Origin: Spirosoma taeanense
Lineage (GTDB): Bacteria > Bacteroidota > Bacteroidia > Cytophagales > Spirosomataceae
Direction of reading: 5' to 3'
NCBI RefSeq assembly: GCF_013127955.1
Contig: NZ_CP053435.1
Coordinates: forward strand, 2,728,001-2,792,000
Length of the DNA stretch: 64,000 nucleotides
Made by a program: the position numbers and the translations under genes. Below the pieces are notes generated by a model. The model ran no database searches. It saw only the letters and a program-made list of their open reading frames with translations, and was not told the DNA's origin. This document shows, in pieces, positions 17,853 to 28,544 of this stretch (positions within the stretch are counted from its first letter, which is position 1; the number at the start of each line of letters is the position of its first letter).

Positions 17853-18245
17853 ATGCCTTACACCATACTCGTCGCTGAGGACAATGAAGACTACTTCACT
17901 TTGTATGCGCGTCATGTCGAACGTTTTTTTGACCAGGTGACCTTGATTGGAGCGCAACATGGGGGCGAAGCTTTGGAGAAATTGCAATCGGGTCTAATCC
18001 CTAACCTGATCTTAGTGGACATTAAAATGCCTGTGATGGATGGTTACGAATTCCTCACCAGGCTGCGGGCCACTGAAGCATGGCGTTACATACCGGTTAT
18101 TATCTGGACTGGCTATACATTATCCCGGGCTGAAGTGGTTCGTTTTTATACTGCGGGGGCTAACTCGGTCATGAGCAAGCATGATTCCATGAAAGATATA
18201 AAGGCATTCTGTCAGTACTGGTTTGAGATGGTTCAGATTCCCTAA
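17853..18245 (+). CDS. Single-domain response regulator (CheY-like)
   Basis: 130 residues from the ATG at 17853. A receiver domain only: acidic pair Glu9-Asp10, phospho-acceptor Asp56 in LILVDIKMP, Thr86 in the switch position and Lys109 in VMSKHDS. There is no output domain, so it must act through protein contacts, for instance as a phosphorelay intermediate. No kinase gene is adjacent, so its partner is unknown. The 320 bases upstream are AT-rich and contain no gene. It ends in a strong hairpin at 18293-18355. Confidence 0.88.
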   Translation: MPYTILVAEDNEDYFTLYARHVERFFDQVTLIGAQHGGEALEKLQSGLIPNLILVDIKMPVMDGYEFLTRLRATEAWRYIPVIIWTGYTLSRAEVVRFYTAGANSVMSKHDSMKDIKAFCQYWFEMVQIP

Positions 18246-18292
18246 CCGAAGAAATCATGGAATAAGCGAGTCAATCGTAGTAGATTAATGCG

Positions 18293-18355
18293 CTTAAAAG
18301 TAATGGGTTACGTACCCGTTATGTATCGGGAGCTACGTAACCCATTGCTTTTAAG
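18293..18355. terminator. Terminator after the response regulator gene
   Basis: A 22-base stem (18293-18314 with 18334-18355, one T-G pair) with a 19-base loop. TTTTAAG closes the right arm and CTTAAAAG opens the left arm, so it could stop transcription from either side. Confidence 0.75.
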
Positions 18356-18372
18356 GGGCTTCTACACTGTAA

Positions 18373-18612
18373 TCATTGATCCATCGAAGCGGTTAGCCAG
18401 AACCCGCTGAACGGTTTATTGTAATTGCTCTCCTGCTCTTCCAGAAGTCCAATGGTAACCTGTTCACCCAGCACACAATGAATCCGGTAATGAATTCCGG
18501 CAGCGTTTCTGCCAATAGACAGGTTTAACGCCAGTTTGTTCCGTTCATGCCCAACGGTCAGGTTGAGGCTCCGCCCACAGGCCTGAGCGTAGTCCATTGG
18601 TTGTCGGATCAT
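18373..18612 (-). pseudogene. Remnant of a vanadium-haloperoxidase/PAP2-like protein
   Basis: 79 residues survive. KLALNLSIGRNAAGIHYR followed by LGEQVTIGLLEEQ and a final FSGFWL stretch resembles the C-terminal part of PAP2-superfamily vanadium-dependent haloperoxidases, where the R-x-x-x-G-x-H-like block supplies the histidine of the active site. Full-length members have more than 400 residues. Upstream on the minus strand (18613-18940) only short overlapping frames remain, broken by stops, and they cannot be aligned by eye. I read this as a decayed gene whose 3' end is best preserved. The assignment is from motif memory and is moderate. Confidence 0.45.
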
Positions 18613-18979
18613 CAGGTATCAACCGGGCTTCATTAAGCCATGCCCTCAATACCGTATAGCTGGTGAATTTCGTGATTAGGGAGTTAGCCGCCTGGGCTGC
18701 CTGCGAAGCCGGATCGGAGTACCGGCTAAAATGCTTGTCCCATAGCATGGTCATCCAAAGCGGCTTAGCCATTGATGACGAGTATTGCTGTGCTGAAATA
18801 ACCACCTCACGCAAAAGCCACGCCTGTTGGAGCTGAGCGCGGCTTTTGTAAGCTGATAAACTCCCCAGCTCGGTCTTTGATGTTCAATTAGCGTACGAGC
18901 CAATATAGTTGATAGAACCGCAGGTTGTTCACACAACGTTTCTAAAAAATCTGTCCATCATATTGGGGGCTAAAATCCA

Positions 18980-19129
18980 TTATTTCTTCTTTTCCTTAGG
19001 CGACAGGTCGGCTACTGAAAATCCAGATTGATTCTGTTCATATTTAGGAATTCTGGGGGCACCATGTACCTTGGGAGCCTTGGTGGCTACCTTTTTGACG
19101 TTTTTGTTTTTCTTTTCTTCGTGGGCCAT
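18980..19129 (-). CDS. Small basic protein, 49 residues
   Basis: ATG at 19129 (minus), stop at 18980-18982. The sequence begins MAHEEKKNKNVKKVATKAPK and ends DLSPKEKKK: Lys-rich at both ends, with a Pro/Gly-containing centre and no membrane helix. Such small Lys-rich proteins may bind nucleic acid or ribosomes, but this one is not recognised. Support is the intact frame, the coding-like composition and the lack of any competing feature. The ribosome-binding site is weak, as is usual in Bacteroidota. Confidence 0.5.
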   Translation of the reverse strand: MAHEEKKNKNVKKVATKAPKVHGAPRIPKYEQNQSGFSVADLSPKEKKK

Positions 19130-19225
19130 GCTCTTGAGTTTATCTAAAGAACACTGATTCGCACAAAACGCTTTAATTTATTACGAAGTCTTTCCGTAAA
19201 AGTTTACCAAATAGGGAATTAAACG

Positions 19226-19420
19226 ATGTTTAAAGGACTCCTGAAGAGTTATTCAGGGCTGGGTCCTGCAGTTTATGCGCAGGCCTTTCGCCTTGAAACA
19301 TTTGTGGCTTTGCCCGGGCGGTGGATCGTAGAAGGTATAATTGCAGGCACAGTCGCTGGAGTGTTGATTACGAGCGGTGTCGATCAAATCGTCGGAAGTC
19401 ACGAGTCGAGTGGTTCTTAA
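19226..19420 (+). CDS. Possible small membrane protein, 64 residues
   Basis: Begins MFKGLLKSYSGLGPAVYAQA and contains one hydrophobic segment at about 33-55 with several Gly and Ala, which could be a single membrane helix. No known family and no clear ribosome-binding site. It lies between a small basic protein gene and an AT-rich region. It may be chance; listed because nothing else occupies this stretch. Confidence 0.25.
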   Translation: MFKGLLKSYSGLGPAVYAQAFRLETFVALPGRWIVEGIIAGTVAGVLITSGVDQIVGSHESSGS

Positions 19421-19952
19421 AACGGCTTTACATACCATTTTTAAAGCAAAGGCTTTCCGTCAAACGACCGAATGATTTTGAGATAAGACAATTTACGCTA
19501 GAATTGATTGACACGCATCCGTGTGATAACACGCTTATTTTGCCGACTTTTTAATTTTTATAAATGCAACTGATTCTGAACTAACTATGTAGTAAGCTAG
19601 TTACTATATAGACAGTAACTTACCTTTTGATCATATCCTCTCTGCTCGCTAAAATCTTTGCCTTTTTCGTAAGTAACACCGCAAACTACCTACGATTTTA
19701 GACGTCCGTCTTTTAGCTTGTCCGGCATTGATTCCCATTTCGACCCAATTAAATCAGTCGTTCTTTTCTCAGGCTCCTTATCAAACACCTTTAACGTACA
19801 TTTCTTCTCTTAGCAAAATCGTTGGTCAATCGGTCTGGTGCCGGCTTCCTGGCTATAAGCTAGTGGCTAACTAACGATCCCTTCGGTCCTCATTTCACAA
19901 CTGCTTCGGCTTGGGCTAATCCCTGACTCGGTTCAGCAAACGCCTACCGACC
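19421..19952. other. Intergenic leader region of the HxlR gene
   Basis: 532 bases without a convincing gene. It holds an inverted repeat AGTTACT-N8-AGTAACT at 19599-19620 and an AT-rich stretch near 19545-19610. If transcription starts near that dyad, the HxlR-desaturase mRNA has a leader of close to 300 bases. No known riboswitch was recognised. Confidence 0.45.
19599..19620 (+). promoter_or_regulatory. Candidate HxlR operator
   Basis: AGTTACT (19599-19605) and AGTAACT (19614-19620) are perfect 7-base inverted repeats with an 8-base AT-rich spacer. This resembles the short dyads bound by HxlR/YodB-type regulators; an HxlR gene is the next gene downstream, though 333 bases away. Confidence 0.4.
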
Positions 19953-20285
19953 ATGACCACGAGTGACCGCCCTGACCAGCCTTTCGAGCCCAGTCTATTA
20001 TTGATTAGCCATGCCTTGTCGATTCTATGCGGCAAATGGCGGCTGTATATAATGCTGGTATTGGGTGAGCAAACGCTCCGGTATGGCCAATTGAGCGAAC
20101 GGTTGCCTGACGTAAGCCAGAAAGTCCTGGCTGGTGAGTTGAAAGCCCTGGTTGCTCTGGGCGTGCTACAGCGAACTGTATATACCGAAATTCCGCCCCG
20201 GGTGGAATATCAACTTGCCCCAAAAGGCCTTTCTGCTTTACCTCTGCTGAGGCAGATTCAACAGATTGGTCAACTCATCACATAA
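19953..20285 (+). CDS. HxlR family winged-helix transcriptional regulator
   Basis: 110 residues. ALSILCGKWRLYIMLVL (about 22-38) is the signature opening helix of HxlR proteins, followed by LRYGQLSERLPDVSQKVLAGELKAL (recognition region, about 43-67) and the beta wing RTVYTEIPPRVEYQLAPKG. It has a Cys at about 27 in the position where some family members sense thiols or quinones. The desaturase gene starts 9 bases after its stop, so the two probably form an operon and the regulator may respond to a lipid or redox signal. The N-terminal extension of about 18 residues is ordinary. Confidence 0.9.
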   Translation: MTTSDRPDQPFEPSLLLISHALSILCGKWRLYIMLVLGEQTLRYGQLSERLPDVSQKVLAGELKALVALGVLQRTVYTEIPPRVEYQLAPKGLSALPLLRQIQQIGQLIT

Positions 20286-20294
20286 GTGTTCTTT

Positions 20295-21377
20295 ATGGCA
20301 ACCAAACTCAAATTTATAAACACAAGCCAATCTGCCTTTTTTGCGACGGTTCGCGGGCGGGTCGATGCCTATTTTGCCCAGCGAGCCATCTCTCCCCACG
20401 CCAACCGAGCCATGTGGGCTAAAGCAGTCTTTTTTCTTGGTGGTTACGCGCTGTTTTACGGGCTGATTTTTTCTAATCATTTTGGCCCCTGGGTGATGTT
20501 GGGGCTAGCCATTGGCCTGGGGGTCTTTGCTGCCTGTATTGGCTTTAATGTCTCGCATGATGCGTTACACGGCGCTTTTTCAGCTCGTCCCTGGGTCAAT
20601 AAACTATTAGGGGGGAGCTTTTATCTGCTGGGCGCTAATCCCTACGTCTGGAAGATTACCCACAACGTCGTGCATCACACCTACACGAATATTCCCGGTC
20701 ATGACGAAGACATTGAAGTCGCCCCAGGACTTATTCGGCTTGATCCCCTGGAAAAGCTTCAGCCCTGGCATCGGTATCAGCAGTGGTATACCTTTCCCCT
20801 TTACGCCCTGGCTTCGCTATCCTGGGTATTGCGAAAGGATTACGTAAAGTTTTTCAAGAGCAGGATTGGCCACCACGACACGGCTAACCACCCCTCCCGT
20901 GAATATATTAAGCTTTTTGTGTCAAAAGGACTCTATTACGTATTTTTTCTCGTGCTGCCATCAATGGTGCTAAGTGTGGCCTGGTGGCAGGTGCTGATTG
21001 GGTTTATAGTCATGCACCTGGCTGAAGGATTAGTACTTGGTCTGGTGTTCCAGCTGGCGCACGTAGTGGAAGGCACCACTTTTCCTTTGCCCGATGAAAC
21101 AGGTAATGTGCAGGACGCCTGGGCGATTCACCAGTTGCAGACAACCGCCAACTTTGCCCCCCAATCAATGCTTGCTGCCTTTTTCTGCGGTGGTTTAAAC
21201 CGCCAGATTGAGCACCATCTGTTCCCTAAAATTTGCCATATCCATTACCCAGCCATCACCGCTATCGTTAAACGGACCGCGCACGAATTTGGCTTACCTT
21301 ATCTGGAAAATTGTAGCTTCGGCTCGGCGCTGTATTCTCACTTCCGGCTATTGCGGGCCCTCGGCCGGCCGGTTTAG
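20295..21377 (+). CDS. Membrane fatty acid desaturase (front-end/linoleoyl-CoA type)
   Basis: 360 residues from the ATG at 20295, preferred to a GTG 9 bases earlier. Four or more membrane helices and three His boxes: HDALH (about 88-92), HNVVHH (about 123-128) and QIEHHLFP (about 304-311). The Gln at the start of the third box is the mark of front-end and related acyl desaturases. It would introduce a double bond into acyl chains in the membrane using di-iron, oxygen and an electron donor. No cytochrome b5 domain is fused. It is coupled to an HxlR gene just upstream. A dyad at 21413-21463 may end the transcript. Confidence 0.88.
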   Translation: MATKLKFINTSQSAFFATVRGRVDAYFAQRAISPHANRAMWAKAVFFLGGYALFYGLIFSNHFGPWVMLGLAIGLGVFAACIGFNVSHDALHGAFSARPWVNKLLGGSFYLLGANPYVWKITHNVVHHTYTNIPGHDEDIEVAPGLIRLDPLEKLQPWHRYQQWYTFPLYALASLSWVLRKDYVKFFKSRIGHHDTANHPSREYIKLFVSKGLYYVFFLVLPSMVLSVAWWQVLIGFIVMHLAEGLVLGLVFQLAHVVEGTTFPLPDETGNVQDAWAIHQLQTTANFAPQSMLAAFFCGGLNRQIEHHLFPKICHIHYPAITAIVKRTAHEFGLPYLENCSFGSALYSHFRLLRALGRPV

Positions 21378-21412
21378 TGTCTGGTTGGTCATTCGCCCGT
21401 GGCTAGTATTTG

Positions 21413-21463
21413 CAAATGTCTATCTGAGCAATGACCTTTAGTGCTTGCTTAGGTAGACATTTG
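21413..21463 (+). terminator. Possible terminator hairpin after the desaturase gene
   Basis: CAAATGTCTA (21413-21422) and TAGACATTTG (21454-21463) pair perfectly over 10 bases. The 31-base loop can pair further within itself. No T-run follows, so the role is uncertain. Confidence 0.4.
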
Positions 21464-21614
21464 TATTGAACAGAATCATCTCACCCCTAATCGAAACGAT
21501 CGGATAAACGTTCTGTCACCCTGGTTGATCAGGGCAGGAGCTGATTGCTACCCGCGGCTTCAGACAGGCATTTTATAAAGAGCGAATCGATCAACCCAGT
21601 TAATTACGTCGATA

Positions 21615-21971
21615 ATGATTAAACAAATTTATGTAGTACAAGCAGCTGATTGGGCTAGAGTTCATGGTTTTGCCGATATAAAAGCGAACGCCGAGGGCTA
21701 TCCAACACCGATTGCCTATGGCCGCCAACAGGATGGGGAATCGTTCACTCCGGATGTAACGGGCAAGCAGTTCAATCATACATCCTACTTTGAGGTGGTG
21801 CTGAAAACCAGTGAACGGGAACATCTGTTATCCAAGCTCAAACTGCTTCACCAGCTCGCTACGTTACAGGGCGGACAACTTTACCTGATGGCACCAAAAG
21901 GCCACGCGCCCTTTGCCAAATCGATACTACTCAGCAGTCGTATATCGGCCGAAGTTATCCCCTTACAATAA
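21615..21971 (+). CDS. Protein of unknown function, 118 residues
   Basis: Begins MIKQIYVVQAADWARVHGFAD. A mixed alpha/beta soluble protein with no signal peptide or membrane segment. The middle region (EREHLLSKLKLLHQLATLQGGQLYLMAPKGHAPFAKSIL is part of it; residues about 75-112) looks like an amphipathic helix followed by a beta strand. No known family is recognised. It lies alone between the desaturase gene and a stretch of hairpin-forming DNA. Codon use is like its neighbours, which supports it being real. Confidence 0.5.
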   Translation: MIKQIYVVQAADWARVHGFADIKANAEGYPTPIAYGRQQDGESFTPDVTGKQFNHTSYFEVVLKTSEREHLLSKLKLLHQLATLQGGQLYLMAPKGHAPFAKSILLSSRISAEVIPLQ

Positions 21972-22025
21972 AGTGTTGGGGATGCGGTAAACAGGCAGGA
22001 AACCAAGCCTTATACAAACGTTCAG

Positions 22026-22158
22026 ACCGTCTGTGGACGGCCTCGTTCCTCCAGACGGTATCCAATAAACTGGGTGGCGTAGCTATTCTTGTTGGGTAGC
22101 GTACTTTATGCGCAGAATTCATGGGGGACACGCCGTTCGCCAACGGACTCGTGTCCCC
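22026..22158. repeat. Two hairpin-forming inverted repeats without T tails
   Basis: First hairpin: ACCGTCTG (22026-22033) with CAGACGGT (22052-22059). Second: GGGGACACG (22124-22132) with CGTGTCCCC (22150-22158), with an inner CCGTT/AACGG stem and a 4-base loop. They sit between the plus-strand 118-residue gene and the minus-strand gene ending at 22220, so they may terminate both, but a T-run is missing. Confidence 0.4.
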
Positions 22159-22219
22159 TGGCGTCTTGCAATGAGGAGAATGACAGAAAAGCGGCAACCC
22201 GTTTCAACCGACTTTTTCA

Positions 22220-22651
22220 CTATTGAAATTCCATGTCGGCGCCAAAGGTGTGTTGGGGAATTAACCCTGCAACGAACTTATTAATGCGAATGGTTTGACC
22301 TACCCTTACGGTTTTGTCAATCACTTGGTCACTGTGGCCTACCTCAACACCCAAATCCGAGTAGTAGAAAAAACGTAAACGTATGGTTGTATAGTCATGC
22401 TGCTTTGAAGCGTTATAAATTGAAAACGAATGCAAAGCCATTGACCCGGCTTCCCCTTTCTGCCAGGTGTGTTTATTGATAGTTAAATCTCTCCTGGCAT
22501 TTGGCCTGGCTGCTTTGATCACGGCTGCTTTCTGTTGGTTTTCTAAACCGTCAATTTCAGCGGGCGTGGCTTTCCGGGTTATTCGACCAATCAAACTCAG
22601 CACGAGTAAACCACCCAGGACATATAGTGTAATTTTTAAGCACTTTTTCAT
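22220..22651 (-). CDS. Membrane-anchored protein of unknown function, 143 residues
   Basis: Residues 4-23 form a hydrophobic N-terminal anchor (ITLYVLGGLLVLSLIG) without a lipobox Cys. A basic, helical spacer (about 25-55) is followed by a beta-rich domain (about 56-143) with SFSIYNAS, TTIRLRFFYYSD and the pattern of a small extracytoplasmic immunoglobulin-like domain, similar in style to FxLYD domains. Probably sits in the inner membrane facing the periplasm. Not assigned to a named family. Ordinary ATG start at 22651; same strand as the universal stress gene, 218 bases apart. Confidence 0.55.
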   Translation of the reverse strand: MKKCLKITLYVLGGLLVLSLIGRITRKATPAEIDGLENQQKAAVIKAARPNARRDLTINKHTWQKGEAGSMALHSFSIYNASKQHDYTTIRLRFFYYSDLGVEVGHSDQVIDKTVRVGQTIRINKFVAGLIPQHTFGADMEFQ

Positions 22652-22869
22652 ACAAGGGGGCTAGGTATAGCTACTAAGCGAAAACCAGAATTCTCAGGAT
22701 ACGTATAGCGCATTTGTTACTGCCTACCCATCTCATGGCTCGGCAGGCAGAATCAGTGTGGCATTCAGTGGCTCAGCCCAAGATTAGTGTAAACTAATAG
22801 TAGGTCGGCATAGTATCCATCTGCTGTACAAGGCTACCAGGCGCAGTTGGGTTGCCGGTCCAGGCACGG

Positions 22870-23763
22870 CTAACCAGCCAATATAAGCGGCTTATAGGGT
22901 TGACGAACATAAGTTCTCGTCGCTAGCCTATCGGCTGACTTAGATTGAGCTTTACTACCGTCGTCATAAAGCGTCAGCATGGGTACCGATGCAATAAAGG
23001 GCTGTGCGTGTTTTTTGCGGCCACTGGCCAGCCTATCTGTCCGCCATCTGTGATAGGGAATTGTCACCAGTAGATCAACTGAATGGGCAGCCAGATAAGC
23101 ATCTATACCCTGACGGGCATCCAGCGCCTGCAAGTGAACGATAGCCGGTTGAATGGGGGTGAAATACTGCTGGATGAGTGTTTCCTTTTCGTAATGCATG
23201 ACGCTTTTCGGTGGAGTGTCAATATTCAACAGAACAAGGGAAGCGCCTTTAATGGTGATCAGCTCTTTTAAAGAGCTAAGTTGTTCGGTATCCACTGGAT
23301 TAGCTAAATCAGTTGCCAGCACCACCTCGTGAACCCGTCTGGAGGACATATTAACGGGCACGATCAGCAGATTTGACTTGAGTTGGTCAATTAAATTCGT
23401 TGCGCGTTGACCAAACCACTCGAAGCTATCTTTTCTGGCACCGATGACTACCAGATCATAGCCTTCCAGAAGGACGGCCCGCTCGACCGTCTGGAGCAAT
23501 TGCCCTGGGCAGACTGATGACCGGAAGGTATGCCTTTCCGTGCTGGCCTGGCCCTGTAACTCCATCAGTAAATTCTGAAACAGGTCATCATAGTCTACGC
23601 GGGCGGTTCCGAAATTAAATAAAGGCGTGAAGCCTTGAGATCGCTGCGGGTGGACACAGAGCAGATTAAAATCAGCGTCGATTTCGCTAAACAACGAGCG
23701 AGCTACAGCCAGGGCGTTATGAGAGGCTTCCGAAAAGTCGGTCAGCACAAGAATCTTTTTCAT
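22870..23763 (-). CDS. Universal stress protein, tandem UspA domains
   Basis: 297 residues holding two UspA-type domains. The first (1-140) opens MKKILVLTDFSEASHNALAVA and ends in DLVVIGARKDSFEWFGQRATNLIDQLKSNLLIVP-like structure, which carries the G-x-x-x-x-G-type nucleotide loop in degenerate form. The second (about 148-275) opens HEVVLATDLANP and is more divergent. Usp proteins are cytoplasmic stress-response proteins, some binding ATP. It lies just downstream of the unknown small-gene cluster on the same strand, with 215 bases between; whether it belongs to that unit is unknown. Confidence 0.82.
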   Translation of the reverse strand: MKKILVLTDFSEASHNALAVARSLFSEIDADFNLLCVHPQRSQGFTPLFNFGTARVDYDDLFQNLLMELQGQASTERHTFRSSVCPGQLLQTVERAVLLEGYDLVVIGARKDSFEWFGQRATNLIDQLKSNLLIVPVNMSSRRVHEVVLATDLANPVDTEQLSSLKELITIKGASLVLLNIDTPPKSVMHYEKETLIQQYFTPIQPAIVHLQALDARQGIDAYLAAHSVDLLVTIPYHRWRTDRLASGRKKHAQPFIASVPMLTLYDDGSKAQSKSADRLATRTYVRQPYKPLILAG

Positions 23764-23978
23764 GCATGAATGGGTAGTTATGGCCTAATAAATAGCGTAT
23801 TGGAAAGCCCGGGCAGGGCTCCCTGCAGTAACGATGTTTTGGTCGGCCCTGTACAACGAGCCATCTGGGCAACATTGTTGATCATCGGCCGTAATGGACC
23901 ATGCTGGTAGGGTAAATCGTAAGTACCTGAGAATGTACTGCCGTCAAGTCGGCCATCCGCTATTCATAAGCGCCGACG

Positions 23979-24371
23979 CTAGCCCACTACACCAGTGATC
24001 CTATGGATACCTGCTTCAATTGTCACGTGTAGACTCTTGCCAATCCATTGCTGCAGATCAATGCCCCCGCATTCACTCGCCTTGGGGCTTGTGCCTTTAC
24101 CCAGTACCGGTCCATCTAAAATGCGAACAGGAACGCGGCAAACCAAGCCACTATTCGTCTGGGTAAACAGATATTGAAAGATAATGCTCATGGCTGGTAT
24201 GAATGGCCGGGTTGCCCGTTGCTGAGGAATTAAGTCGAATCGTTTGGTGGCATGTTCGACGGTCTTGTATAAAAAAGTACGGGGCTCTTCCTGTACCAAA
24301 TACGGCTTATTATCTACCGGAATAGGTTGCAACGCAATGGGATGGTGCTGTTTTTGAACGGTTTTTGTCAT
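23979..24371 (-). CDS. Two-part small protein (fusion of an A-type and a B-type domain), unknown function
   Basis: 130 residues from the ATG at 24371, preferred to an upstream ATG at 24440 because the next gene's homologous protein starts at the matching position. Residues 13-51 (LQPIPVDNKPYL ... RFDLIPQ) closely resemble the protein encoded at 24995-25195. Residues 68-130 (YLFTQTNSGL ... GGIDLQQWIGKSLHV) resemble the protein encoded at 24724-24957: shared LF, alternating V/I residues, G-[IV]-D, W-x-GK-x-L-x-V and a final I-x-G. So this gene looks like a joined version of two separate neighbours. No signal peptide or membrane segment. Function unknown. Confidence 0.6.
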   Translation of the reverse strand: MTKTVQKQHHPIALQPIPVDNKPYLVQEEPRTFLYKTVEHATKRFDLIPQQRATRPFIPAMSIIFQYLFTQTNSGLVCRVPVRILDGPVLGKGTSPKASECGGIDLQQWIGKSLHVTIEAGIHRITGVVG

Positions 24372-24450
24372 GTTAGTAGCTGTTTTCTTCCAGTAATAAT
24401 ACCTTGGGTAGAGAAACGCTTCGTTCGTTGTCTCCCACAATTCACGTCAG

Positions 24451-24657
24451 CTACACCAGGGCAATATCTCCATTGGCTCGAATTACCAATTCGTCTTTAA
24501 ACAGAAGGCTCTTTACGCTCACATCCCGCACGCCTGGATGTTGCGCCAGAAAGCGTTGATGGGCCTTTTCTTCACTAATGTTCAAATAAGCCCTCTTCCA
24601 GGGTTTAGGGCTAATCGAACCATATCCTGTGACTACAACTAAGGTGTTAGCTTCCAT
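24451..24657 (-). CDS. Small protein of unknown function (cluster member D), 68 residues
   Basis: Begins MEANTLVVVTGYGSISPKPW. Short beta strands near both ends (LVVVTGYG, ELVIRANGDIALV) flank a helix with AHQRFLAQHPG. The middle YLNISEEKAHQRFL is faintly like the YLTGAQAANRFDL segment of the A-type proteins, but this may be chance. It starts 66 bases after the B-type gene and ends 79 bases before the fused gene, all on the minus strand, which suggests one transcript. No family recognised. Confidence 0.5.
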   Translation of the reverse strand: MEANTLVVVTGYGSISPKPWKRAYLNISEEKAHQRFLAQHPGVRDVSVKSLLFKDELVIRANGDIALV

Positions 24658-24723
24658 GGGTGAAATGAGAGTTGACTAAGGGACGGCCAGCCGTTGAAGA
24701 AAAGCCTGAAGAGAAAGCCGGGA

Positions 24724-24957
24724 TCAGGCTACAGCTAAACCAAGGATATAATGTTCCTCGATGCCCTTAAACTTACGAAGCTCAACAGCCAGATCCTTAC
24801 CCTGCCAAGTGATCGGATCAACGCCGTTAATCGTGTTTTTGCTCATACTGAGCTCAGGACCACCCTGAAAAACATTCATGATGTTAATCTGTACTTTGGG
24901 AGTCATGACTTGCCCGTTTACAGCAAAGAGCGTATCAAAATTTATGCGCATAGACAT
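24724..24957 (-). CDS. Small B-type protein of unknown function, 77 residues
   Basis: Begins MSMRINFDTLFAVNGQVMTP; Met3 could also be the start. Alternating hydrophobic residues (KVQINIMNV, DLAVELRKF, HYILGLAVA) suggest a small beta barrel or sandwich. The block G-V-D-P-I-T-W-Q-G-K-D-L matches G-I-D-L-Q-Q-W-I-G-K-S-L in the second half of the protein at 23979-24371. It begins 37 bases after the A-type gene, so A and B are adjacent here in the same order in which they are joined in the longer protein. Confidence 0.55.
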   Translation of the reverse strand: MSMRINFDTLFAVNGQVMTPKVQINIMNVFQGGPELSMSKNTINGVDPITWQGKDLAVELRKFKGIEEHYILGLAVA

Positions 24958-24994
24958 CGGATTTGTTGGTTAATAGTGAAAGAAAAGTGTATGA

Positions 24995-25195
24995 CTAAGA
25001 GCGGTCCATCTCGATAAAGCCAGTACCTGTATACTGATCAGCCAGGCGTTCAAACTGAGGAATCAAATCGAACCGGTTTGCGGCCTGGGCGCCAGTCAGA
25101 TACACCAGTGTGTCGGCTTCACCCCGGATGAGATAAGGCTTTTTATCTGCAGGAATTGGCTGCAAGGGAATCGATTGGCGCTGTTTTGAGGACAT
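24995..25195 (-). CDS. Small A-type protein of unknown function, 66 residues
   Basis: Begins MSSKQRQSIPLQPIPADKKP from the ATG at 25195; an in-frame ATG at 25213 would add six residues. LQPIPADKKPYL, the Glu and Thr after it, and RFDLIPQ match the first part of the fused protein at 23979-24371 at more than half of about 43 positions by my hand count. The rest is polar. No membrane segment, no Cys. Position directly before the B-type gene suggests that the two proteins act together. Not similar to any family I know. Confidence 0.55.
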   Translation of the reverse strand: MSSKQRQSIPLQPIPADKKPYLIRGEADTLVYLTGAQAANRFDLIPQFERLADQYTGTGFIEMDRS

Positions 25196-25285
25196 CTTGG
25201 GCTGGTTATACATACACTATTTAGTTTAATTCGGGTTATTGGCGTCAGGCCACTTACTGCAGCCTGAGCAGCTACTCGGCCAGGC

Positions 25286-25369
25286 TTATGGACGCTTATT
25301 GACATAGACGGAAGAGAAATCGAAGCCCATACCCAGAACTGGTAGCTCAAGGTACTTTGCTTCAGGCAT
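25286..25369 (-). CDS. Possible 27-residue peptide overlapping the upstream gene
   Basis: The ATG (25369-25367) overlaps the stop codon of the 175-residue gene in the arrangement ATGCCTGA, which favours translational coupling. The peptide reads MPEAKYLELPVLGMGFDFSS and then VYVNKRP. It has no signal peptide. The overlap and the position inside a run of small genes support it, but a frame this short can arise by chance. Confidence 0.35.
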   Translation of the reverse strand: MPEAKYLELPVLGMGFDFSSVYVNKRP

Positions 25370-25889
25370 CGACCAGGTAGCGGCCAGCCTGGATGAAGGC
25401 CCGCATCAGATGTCGGTAGAAGTAAACCCGGTCCCGACCGATAAAGAACGCTTGTTCATTCTTATGCTCGCAGCTAAAAGCCAGGCCATTGGAAAAACAT
25501 CCGCTGCCCGCTCCGTAAAAGTAATTGAGGCCAGGAGAGAGAATTGTTAGGCCGCGCTGGGTAGGCCCTACCGGGCTGATGACAAAGGCAGACTGCCGCA
25601 TCACGTCCAGTAGACTGGTAATGTCCTGGGGTTTACCGTCTGCACCTACCTCATCCGTAAAGTCAATGCGCTTACCCCTCAACGAAGCCTGCCTTACCAA
25701 GGCGCTGATGGCTAGAATCAGTTCAAGCCAGCGCGCCTGACTCTGAGGGGTGAAGGGCGCAGAAGGTTTGAAGACCGGTGATTGGAACAGGTGGGCAATC
25801 TGGGATAACTGGTCAGTCAACTGCGGCTTGGTCCAGATTGCATCGGGATAATCGATCATCATTGGCGGCCTTTGACGGTCGGTTAGCAT
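25362..25889 (-). CDS. Protein of unknown function heading the small-gene cluster, 175 residues
   Basis: ATG at 25889; Met10 or Met11 (25862, 25859) would also give a sensible start. The first 90 residues are helical (ARWLELILAISALVRQASL). The second half has short strands and a Gly-rich segment (GLNYFYGAGSGCFSNGLAFSCEH) and then RDRVYFYRHLMRAFIQAGRYL. No known domain. It is the first gene of the minus-strand run that continues through the peptide, A-type, B-type, D and fused genes, with only short gaps, and so is the likely operon head. Confidence 0.55.
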   Translation of the reverse strand: MLTDRQRPPMMIDYPDAIWTKPQLTDQLSQIAHLFQSPVFKPSAPFTPQSQARWLELILAISALVRQASLRGKRIDFTDEVGADGKPQDITSLLDVMRQSAFVISPVGPTQRGLTILSPGLNYFYGAGSGCFSNGLAFSCEHKNEQAFFIGRDRVYFYRHLMRAFIQAGRYLVDA

Positions 25890-26383
25890 GCACGCAGCAA
25901 AGCTGTTACACTGTAAACACGATTGATAACGAAATGATTACAGTATATTCGAAGATAGTTAGCTACTTTGATAAATACAGCCTAAGGACGTGGCGCCCAT
26001 GGCTGACGGATGAGTCTAATGCTTGTTGAGCGCTCGCCCAACAGGGGTTATCATTCAGTTTAAAACGGATAAACAACCCCCTTTTTCTCGCTCGCTTGAT
26101 GTATTAAGAAATTGCGTCCCATTGAGCGTCGGTCAGAACGTTCAATGGGACGCCGGGACGCCGGAGTAGTCATTACTTTGTATCAGGGTCGATCCACAAC
26201 CGTTCGGTGTTGCCCTTTTTACAATTCCCGATACGTTCTTAAAATCTCATAAAAACTCCCGATGATCAGGCGTATTGAGTAATCCGCTAATTCTATCCTT
26301 GTTCGACCCTATTACACGTGAAAACCAGATAACGAAACAGTGCACGGACAGAAACGATTATAGAATCAAAGCCATAACAGCTC
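25890..26383. other. Intergenic region with hairpin between divergent genes
   Basis: 494 bases. It contains a 16-base stem (26114-26129 with 26138-26153, one G-T pair, 8-base loop) without a T-run, and a short palindrome TTACAGTGTAA (minus strand, near 25910-25922) upstream of the small-gene cluster. No gene or clear promoter is seen. Confidence 0.45.
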
Positions 26384-26860
26384 ATGCGACCACTTCAGAA
26401 CCGTTACCCTATAGCGCCAACTTTGGGCGGTTTTCTCGATGATCGCTGTCTTAAGCTGAGCGAAGCCCTGGCTTATTACACAATGTTCTCACTGGCTCCA
26501 CTGCTGGTATTAATCATGTCGCTGGCAAGTATCTTTCTAGGCCAGGAAGCTATTCGTGGTCAGATCTTTGGCCAGCTAACGGATTGGTGGGTAATGAGGC
26601 CGCTGCGCAGATTCAGGACATAATCAAAAAGGTAGAGCTGTCGGGTCAGACCAACACCGTTTTGATTCTGGGCATTGTTACCTTACTGCTGGGAGCCACC
26701 AGCCTCTTCGTTAAAATTCAGGACTCGGTCAATCTGATCTGGCGTGTTAAAGCCAAACCCGAGAAAGGGTGGCTCAAACTGCTAATACACCTTGTTTGTC
26801 TTAGGACTTGCTGGTATCATTTTTGACACGGCCAGGATGCCGGTGCGATCAGAAAGTTAA
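26384..26860 (+). pseudogene. Broken YihY/BrkB family membrane protein gene
   Basis: Frame 1 (26384-26623) encodes the family start with a hydrophobic helix: LSEALAYYTMFSLAPLLVLI, and runs to LTDW. The continuation VGNEAAAQIQDIIKKVELSG ... LGATSLFVKIQDSVNLIWRVK lies in another frame (26584-26826). One missing base near 26590 would restore the frame. A second shift near 26795 moves the next membrane helix (FVLGLAGIIF) into a third frame, which ends at 26860. Intact members have about 300 residues, so the rest is lost too. The conserved GNEAA and GAT...QDSLN-IW blocks make the family assignment firm. Confidence 0.8.
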
Positions 26861-26997
26861 CCTCTTTGTTTAATTACGCTTCAGATAGACCTGAATCAGC
26901 GGTTCCGGCCGGAATACATGCTCTCTGCTTACTAGTGAGCGGCCTTTTAACCGGTTGAAACGCCGTAGGCGCTATCAAAACGGGTGATTGAGGAGTT

Positions 26998-27345
26998 ATG
27001 TGTCTGAGTAAACCAATTTTTCGGATGATTATAGAACTGTATGCCGCTCAGCCGGCGGAGGCAGCCGGAGCGCCTGACTTACCCGTTTCCAATTTACAGG
27101 GCGAACTGCCCGAACAGGAACCCGCGCTCGACATGGGCGATTTGTTGGGGAGCTTCCCGTCCAGAGAAGAAGCAATGAATTTTGTCCAATACCGGGCAGC
27201 GGCTCACCAACGGGAAGTAGTGGATACCCACAGTGCTCCGTTCAACGATTACGTGCATATTGAGTGGCTAACGGTTACATTCAAAAATGAAGACCAGTCA
27301 ACCCATTCAGAGGGGTATTATCTGGTATCCGACGAAGGGTACTAG
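26998..27345 (+). CDS. Protein of unknown function, 115 residues
   Basis: The ATG at 26998 is preceded by GAGGAG at a suitable distance, a stronger ribosome-binding site than most here, so this start is favoured over Met10. Residues 15-50 are acidic and rich in Pro and Ala. Residues 50-115 are a small alpha/beta domain (FPSREEAMNFVQYRAAAH, then YVHIEWLTVTFKNED, then EGYYLVSDEGY). No family is recognised. It follows the broken YihY gene and ends near the convergent Crp-type regulator gene. Confidence 0.5.
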   Translation: MCLSKPIFRMIIELYAAQPAEAAGAPDLPVSNLQGELPEQEPALDMGDLLGSFPSREEAMNFVQYRAAAHQREVVDTHSAPFNDYVHIEWLTVTFKNEDQSTHSEGYYLVSDEGY

Positions 27346-27373
27346 CCTCGCTATCCGGAATTCAGACCCGGAT

Positions 27374-27967
27374 TTATTTATGGGTCAGCTGCGCTCTGAT
27401 CCGGCTGAGCGAAGGGCCTTTGATACCCAGGTACGACGCGATGTGGCCTAGCGAAACGCGATTGAGAATATCGGGCTGGTTTTCGATCAGGGCGACGTAA
27501 CGTTCTTCGGCGGTCTGCGTCAGTAGGCTCTCAGACCGGGTCTGATTGAACAGGAAATACTGTTCGGCCAGAATCCGGCCGAACCGCTCCCAGCCGTGGG
27601 ATTGTGCATACAGCTGTTGCAGGTGTTCATGCTCAATAACCAGCAGTTCGGCATCTTCCAGGGCTTCGATAAGGTAAGGGCAGGTCGTTCGGGTCAGTAA
27701 ACTTTTCAACGAGGTTAAAAACGTATTTTCGGCGATGAAGTACAGGTTATGTTCCAATTCAGTGTTGGGATCGACGTAATAAACCCGGAATAACCCTTTC
27801 AGAACAAAGCCAACATGCCGACAGATAGAGTTGCTGAAGTTGAAAAATTCGTGCCGGCCCATCGTCCGGAAACGCCAGTATTTATTTGCCATCAGCATAT
27901 CGGCTTCGGACAGCTGCGCAAACTGTTTTAGTTGATGCTGTAAGATAAGATGCTTTGCAGAAATCAT
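27374..27967 (-). CDS. Crp/Fnr family transcriptional regulator
   Basis: 197 residues with the N-terminal cyclic-nucleotide-binding-type beta barrel (about 20-120) and a C-terminal helix-turn-helix: RVSLGHIASYLGIKGPSLSRIR (about 172-193). It lacks the Cys cluster of Fnr and the full cAMP-contact set, like most Bacteroidota members, so the ligand is unknown. It is divergent from an OsmC-type peroxidase gene with 160 bases between. A dyad TCACTT-N8-AAGTGA at 28034-28053 lies in the shared region. Control of the OsmC gene is a reasonable inference. Confidence 0.88.
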   Translation of the reverse strand: MISAKHLILQHQLKQFAQLSEADMLMANKYWRFRTMGRHEFFNFSNSICRHVGFVLKGLFRVYYVDPNTELEHNLYFIAENTFLTSLKSLLTRTTCPYLIEALEDAELLVIEHEHLQQLYAQSHGWERFGRILAEQYFLFNQTRSESLLTQTAEERYVALIENQPDILNRVSLGHIASYLGIKGPSLSRIRAQLTHK

Positions 27968-28033
27968 TCGCCAGTGGGTTATCAGTCGTTCAGCGGGGGG
28001 CTTGACCCGAAGCCAGGTCTGGAGGCCATTCTG

Positions 28034-28127: not shown

Positions 28128-28544
28128 ATGAAAATCACCCGTAAATCGTCGGCCCACTGGGCAGGAACTGGCAAAGATGGTAAAGGCACGTTAACCTCGG
28201 CCAGCACAGTCCTGAACAACACTCAATATTCGTTCAACACCCGGTTCGAAAATGGCGTCGGTACTAATCCAGAAGAGCTTGTTGCAGCTGCCCATGCGGG
28301 CTGTTTTGCCATGCAACTGGCCTTTAATATTCAGAATGCGGGTTTCGCGGCCGATTCACTGGATGTTCAGTGTGCTGTCACGCTGGAAGATAGCGGTATC
28401 ACCAGTTCAAAACTAACGCTTAACGCCAGCGTACCGGGTTTGGATAAGGCCAAGTTCGATGAGTTGGTTGATCATGCCGAACACAATTGCCCCATTTCGA
28501 AGCTGTTGAATACCAGCATCAGCGTTGAGGCTACCTTAGCGTAA
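28128..28544 (+). CDS. OsmC family peroxiredoxin-like protein
   Basis: 138 residues. The OsmC fold is clear: [20 protein letters not shown] (about 45-64) carries the first reactive Cys and its Glu partner, and [13 protein letters not shown] (about 116-128) the second. These two Cys reduce organic hydroperoxides in the cytoplasm. The length is typical. A perfect -7 box lies upstream, a 15-base terminator hairpin lies just downstream, and the divergent Crp-type gene is the likely regulator. Confidence 0.92.

Follow-up and report, generated by a model that had tools for sequence, protein, structure and literature searches.

Small proteins A and B, their fusion in Spirosoma taeanense, and a predicted membrane-lipid and stress island

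Introduction

Gene sets for lipid remodelling that combine a desaturase with a cyclopropane-fatty-acid synthase exist, and these sets, two-gene toxin-antitoxin operons and single-domain proteins of the OB fold (a barrel of five strands, with a helix placed between the third and the fourth) are the described systems that come closest to the locus analysed here. This locus is a minus-strand cluster of small genes (23979-25889) in Spirosoma taeanense, contig NZ_CP053435.1; positions refer to the window, the whole 64-kb stretch of the 5.72-Mb genome that we analysed. One gene of the cluster, F, joins relatives of two others, A and B, and we read the locus as an accessory membrane-lipid/stress island carrying swappable small proteins, a role predicted from its gene neighbourhood. 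In those portions of the literature that were available to us we saw nothing on these genes; the nearest paper is a description of a cold-adapted Dyadobacter (PMC12584681).

Results

F joins homologues of A and B

An earlier note on this DNA had proposed that the 130-residue protein F (23979-24371; 153 residues from an upstream TTG) repeats A (24995-25195, 66 residues; 72 from an upstream ATG at 25213) in its first half and B (24724-24957, 77 residues) in its second. Local alignment bears this out for A (score 125 over 44 ungapped residues, reached by none of 2000 shuffles, fitted p ~8e-15) and for B (score 53, again reached by none of 2000, fitted p ~8e-5), and the profile-profile comparison that the note had suggested agrees with the shuffle tests. 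A profile of 16 A rows, with F left out, matched the A half of F at E 5.9e-16. For B, a profile of the group to which the window copy belongs (B1, 11 rows) matched that of the group containing the second half of F (B2, 17 rows, this half included) at E 8.4e-11 and 97% probability, the sole significant pair when 11 families from these loci were compared in 55 pairings (next best E 0.022); because the two profiles were built independently, the homology of B to the second half of F is settled. A and B are also adjacent in the window in the order in which F joins them.

The note's further proposal of a local duplication followed by fusion was not supported, since B1 and B2 are separate clades that span several genera. 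In a tree of 29 B rows, from which a decayed copy (locus L025) and the B1 of L176 were left out, B1 (12 rows) and B2 (17 rows) each had support 100/100 and each included other genera, and in a further genus unfused B1 and B2 occur together at a single locus (L175, L176). The five B1 copies directly preceded by A cluster together (support 99/95), and A is missing in front of the other seven B1 rows, so that the A-B1 pairing may be one event. The A tree was little resolved, with the A half of F on a long branch (1.83) whose placement is unsupported.

The fusion is seen in one genome and its A half has drifted

The A-B2 fusion was found in this genome and in no other genome examined, and the named relatives of F come from Spirosoma and Arsenicibacter. 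F consists of an A-like half (24222-24371), a linker of ten codons and a B2 half (23979-24191) with a methionine codon of its own still present (residue 61). When the frames upstream of 22 B copies (17 B2, 5 B1) were read, A and B2 shared a frame in L148 and L150 but were separated by a stop, F had both as one frame without a stop, and in the remaining copies A lay behind a stop, lay in another frame or was absent. From the DLIPQ motif to the B2 methionine there are ten codons in F vs 20 in L148 and 22 in L150 (stop included); the linker is thus about half as long as these spacers, and a short deletion that removed the stop would be a simple route by which F was created. A sequencing error at the junction is another possible source of the single frame. 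A plasmid match over F residues 18-130 was rejected as a second fusion because the upstream frame there has stops.

Thirteen columns are conserved in 90% or more of the remaining 29 A rows; F, in its A half, deviates at five of them and every other row at one at most. The B2 half of F deviates at 2 of 19 conserved columns, as do two other B2 proteins. A conserved ERxFRPVI peptide of ~50 residues lies right behind B2 in three genera (L037:8447-8572, L147, L148, L149, L150, L152, L153, L154, L175, L176 and L177) and was not found in window positions 18000-28000.

A and B are frequent neighbours and no obligate pair

That A and B act as a pair, as the earlier note had suggested, was upheld in part. 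Across the 36 genomes of the genus, 12 of 22 B copies are immediately preceded by A on their own strand, the order recurs in a second genus where the two genes overlap by 4 bases (L028), and A and B occur together in 13 genomes, with A only in three, B only in three and neither in 17 (Fisher p 1e-4, which is optimistic because the genomes are related). Obligate pairing, however, fails: B is missing behind 12 of 24 A copies, and 10 of 22 B copies are not directly preceded by A.

These data bear on whether A binds B in a stable complex, of which F would be the single-chain version, a possibility favoured by the recurrent order, the co-occurrence and a natural fusion in matching order. We consider it unlikely. 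The fused A half has drifted, and the fusion may therefore mark decay of A, which makes it weak evidence for an A-B interaction.

Lipid and stress genes accompany the small genes

Roughly every second copy of A or B has a fatty-acid desaturase gene within 6 kb, frequently accompanied by genes for an HxlR regulator, for a methyltransferase resembling cyclopropane synthases and for cold-shock proteins. Leftward of F, outside the span that the earlier note had framed, the locus in the window goes on with a universal stress protein (22870-23763, minus strand; Pfam Usp E 1.4e-8), the uncharacterised m143 (22220-22651, minus strand; an N-terminal hydrophobic stretch by eye), the uncharacterised 118-residue protein Y118 (21615-21971, plus strand), the desaturase that marks the island (20286-21377, plus strand; Pfam FA_desaturase E 5.5e-36) and an HxlR-type transcription regulator (19953-20285, plus strand; Pfam HxlR E 3.9e-21, NCBIfam RrpB/RrpA 7e-14/9e-14, under the curated cut-offs). 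This desaturase has 39 matches in 28 of the 36 genus genomes at E <= 1e-60, its own genome's two included, and a CMAS-type methyltransferase gene follows the desaturase directly in 13 of 19 cases. A second locus of the same genome (L179:3738-6631, at 5.10 Mb) reads HxlR-desaturase-methyltransferase-X, with an HxlR frame that is short as called (50 residues) and a 66-residue frame with FRPMI before X.

In S. oryzicola such genes are carried on plasmids. One of these (NZ_CP089543.1, L035:3000-15700) holds several neighbouring copies of X, B, C and m143, part of them interrupted by stops or frameshifts, an array that we read as repeated duplication and decay, and also arsenic genes, a transaldolase and a ketoacyl-ACP synthase III. 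Short frames in front of A in L148 (7250-7471) and L149 (5849-6127) resemble the start of X and are apparent X remnants.

These decayed copies and remnants raise the question of whether the small genes are passengers at a site by the desaturase that gathers orphan genes without joint function, all the more as most copies of C, and about half of those of A, B and X, are found at other places, and 23 of 39 desaturase loci have none of them. This is doubtful, as the desaturase link holds at different sites and across genera and the small genes are under purifying selection. The ratio of nonsynonymous to synonymous substitution rates (dN/dS), for pairs with a synonymous difference <0.72, was 0.07-0.22 for A, 0.07-0.24 for B and 0.06-0.14 for C among listed pairs with dS <1 (0.06-0.17 among all listed C pairs); for B it climbs to 0.58 in more distant pairs, which are near saturation. 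The B2 half of F gave 0.20 and 0.24 against two S. oryzicola copies, and its A half 0.165 against the window A at dS 1.8.

A promoter motif common to the island genes was a rejected candidate, the first match being the A coding sequence itself. In an intergenic-only search none of the 25 best 4-mer pairs was present in more than 11 of 109 sequences, a figure uncorrected for the number of patterns screened, and all 5-mer pairs stayed below the threshold. Sigma-70-like sites were not enriched across 19800-26400 (5 vs 8.1 in shuffles).

The small genes recur in varying sets

The cluster further holds C (24451-24657, 68 residues) and X (25362-25889, 175 residues; 166-175 across relatives), and all its genes lie on the minus strand where the earlier note had placed them. 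Its possible 27-residue peptide (25286-25369, minus strand, overlapping the end of X by 8 bases) is unsupported as a gene: the frame is not conserved and the best match outside its own genome, at E 0.93 in the fetched loci, is not convincing.

A occurs as 24 copies in 16 of the 36 genus genomes and in 14 of 150 family genomes (4 of 36 genera), and B as 22 copies in 16 genus genomes and in 15 of the 150 (5 of 36 genera). C was found in 22 genus genomes, three by weak matches (E 9e-5 to 8e-4), and in another genus (L173), and X in 22 genus genomes. A search of 194 genomes of the order found X in at least two and C in at least three, and one of 296 genomes of the phylum, few of them from this family, found B in its own genome only; counts from these wide searches are lower bounds because scoring covered a part of the first-look candidates. 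For neighbourhood counts, five weak or distant C rows (E 3e-14 or worse) were left out and two fragments of a broken copy in S. oryzicola RHs26 (same genus) were merged (29 to 23 rows), and one 26-residue X fragment of that genome was left out (33 to 32 rows). Y118 has 11 members in the fetched regions, the window included, and lies behind X or A in other loci; m143 sits after B2 in two S. oryzicola plasmid copies (50% and 47% identity). Matches in two Proteobacteria loci (L023, L024) were short stretches inside proteins of 595-612 residues and were dropped as chance. A distant X relative (24% identity, E 3e-7) lies on a 5.8-kb mobilizable plasmid of Acinetobacter schindleri (L182:4570-5091), adjoining an annotated HigA/RelE-type pair; none of the eight annotated genes there is named as a lipid gene. 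Judged by sequence matches, the set thus appears nearly all confined so far to this bacterial family, in mix-and-match combinations.

A, B, C and X had no significant match in Pfam, NCBIfam or PADLOC, nor had Y118 in Pfam, NCBIfam, PHROG or PADLOC, and a phage collection search with F gave none; the PADLOC anti-phage defence models matched none of seven proteins, although absence from this library is no exclusion. A PD-(D/E)xK fold came up for Y118 by visual inspection alone, and we make no claim of it. With 21 neighbouring cold-shock domain rows, hhalign gave E 0.2 for B1 and 0.4 for B2, and B has no Pfam CSD match. The AlphaFold2 model of X has a predicted local distance difference test score (pLDDT) of 85.6 and a predicted template-modelling score (pTM) of 0.81; a candidate arginine is invariant in 23 X proteins, and the residue six further on is histidine in 13 and glutamine in 10. 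For helical bundles a middling Z-score can arise by chance.

Upstream of X, two overlapping frames (26423-26826, plus strand), presumably YihY/BrkB-like, form an apparent frameshifted membrane-protein gene. A stress-protein-like product is encoded near the cluster (28128-28544, plus strand), which we take to resemble OsmC/Ohr-type peroxide-stress proteins.

Discussion

The reading that we prefer is an accessory membrane-lipid/stress island whose small proteins would be swappable. It is very improbable that A and B are instead a two-component toxin-antitoxin or immunity pair in which one neutralises the other: the genes are tiny and adjacent, with short gaps or the 4-base overlap, some genomes have more than one copy and S. 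oryzicola carries them on plasmids, but about half of the copies lack the partner gene behind (A) or directly in front (B) and six genomes have only one of the two, PADLOC gave no match, and the common neighbours are lipid and stress genes. These data give a first handle on conserved small protein families for which no annotation was found, and gene order links the families with the remodelling of membrane lipids under stress, a phenotype that can be tested. F also provides a natural example of a fusion that would point to two obligate partners, a pairing that other genomes do not bear out.

Compared with known systems, this kind of locus resembles lipid-remodelling gene sets in that a desaturase gene is followed by a CMAS-type methyltransferase gene (the 13 of 19 cases above). 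With two-gene toxin-antitoxin operons it shares tiny adjacent genes, some of them in plasmid copies, but differs in that A and B are no obligate pair. Single-domain OB-fold proteins such as IF-1 and the cold-shock proteins are the remaining comparison, and the B sequence is unrelated to the neighbouring cold-shock proteins.
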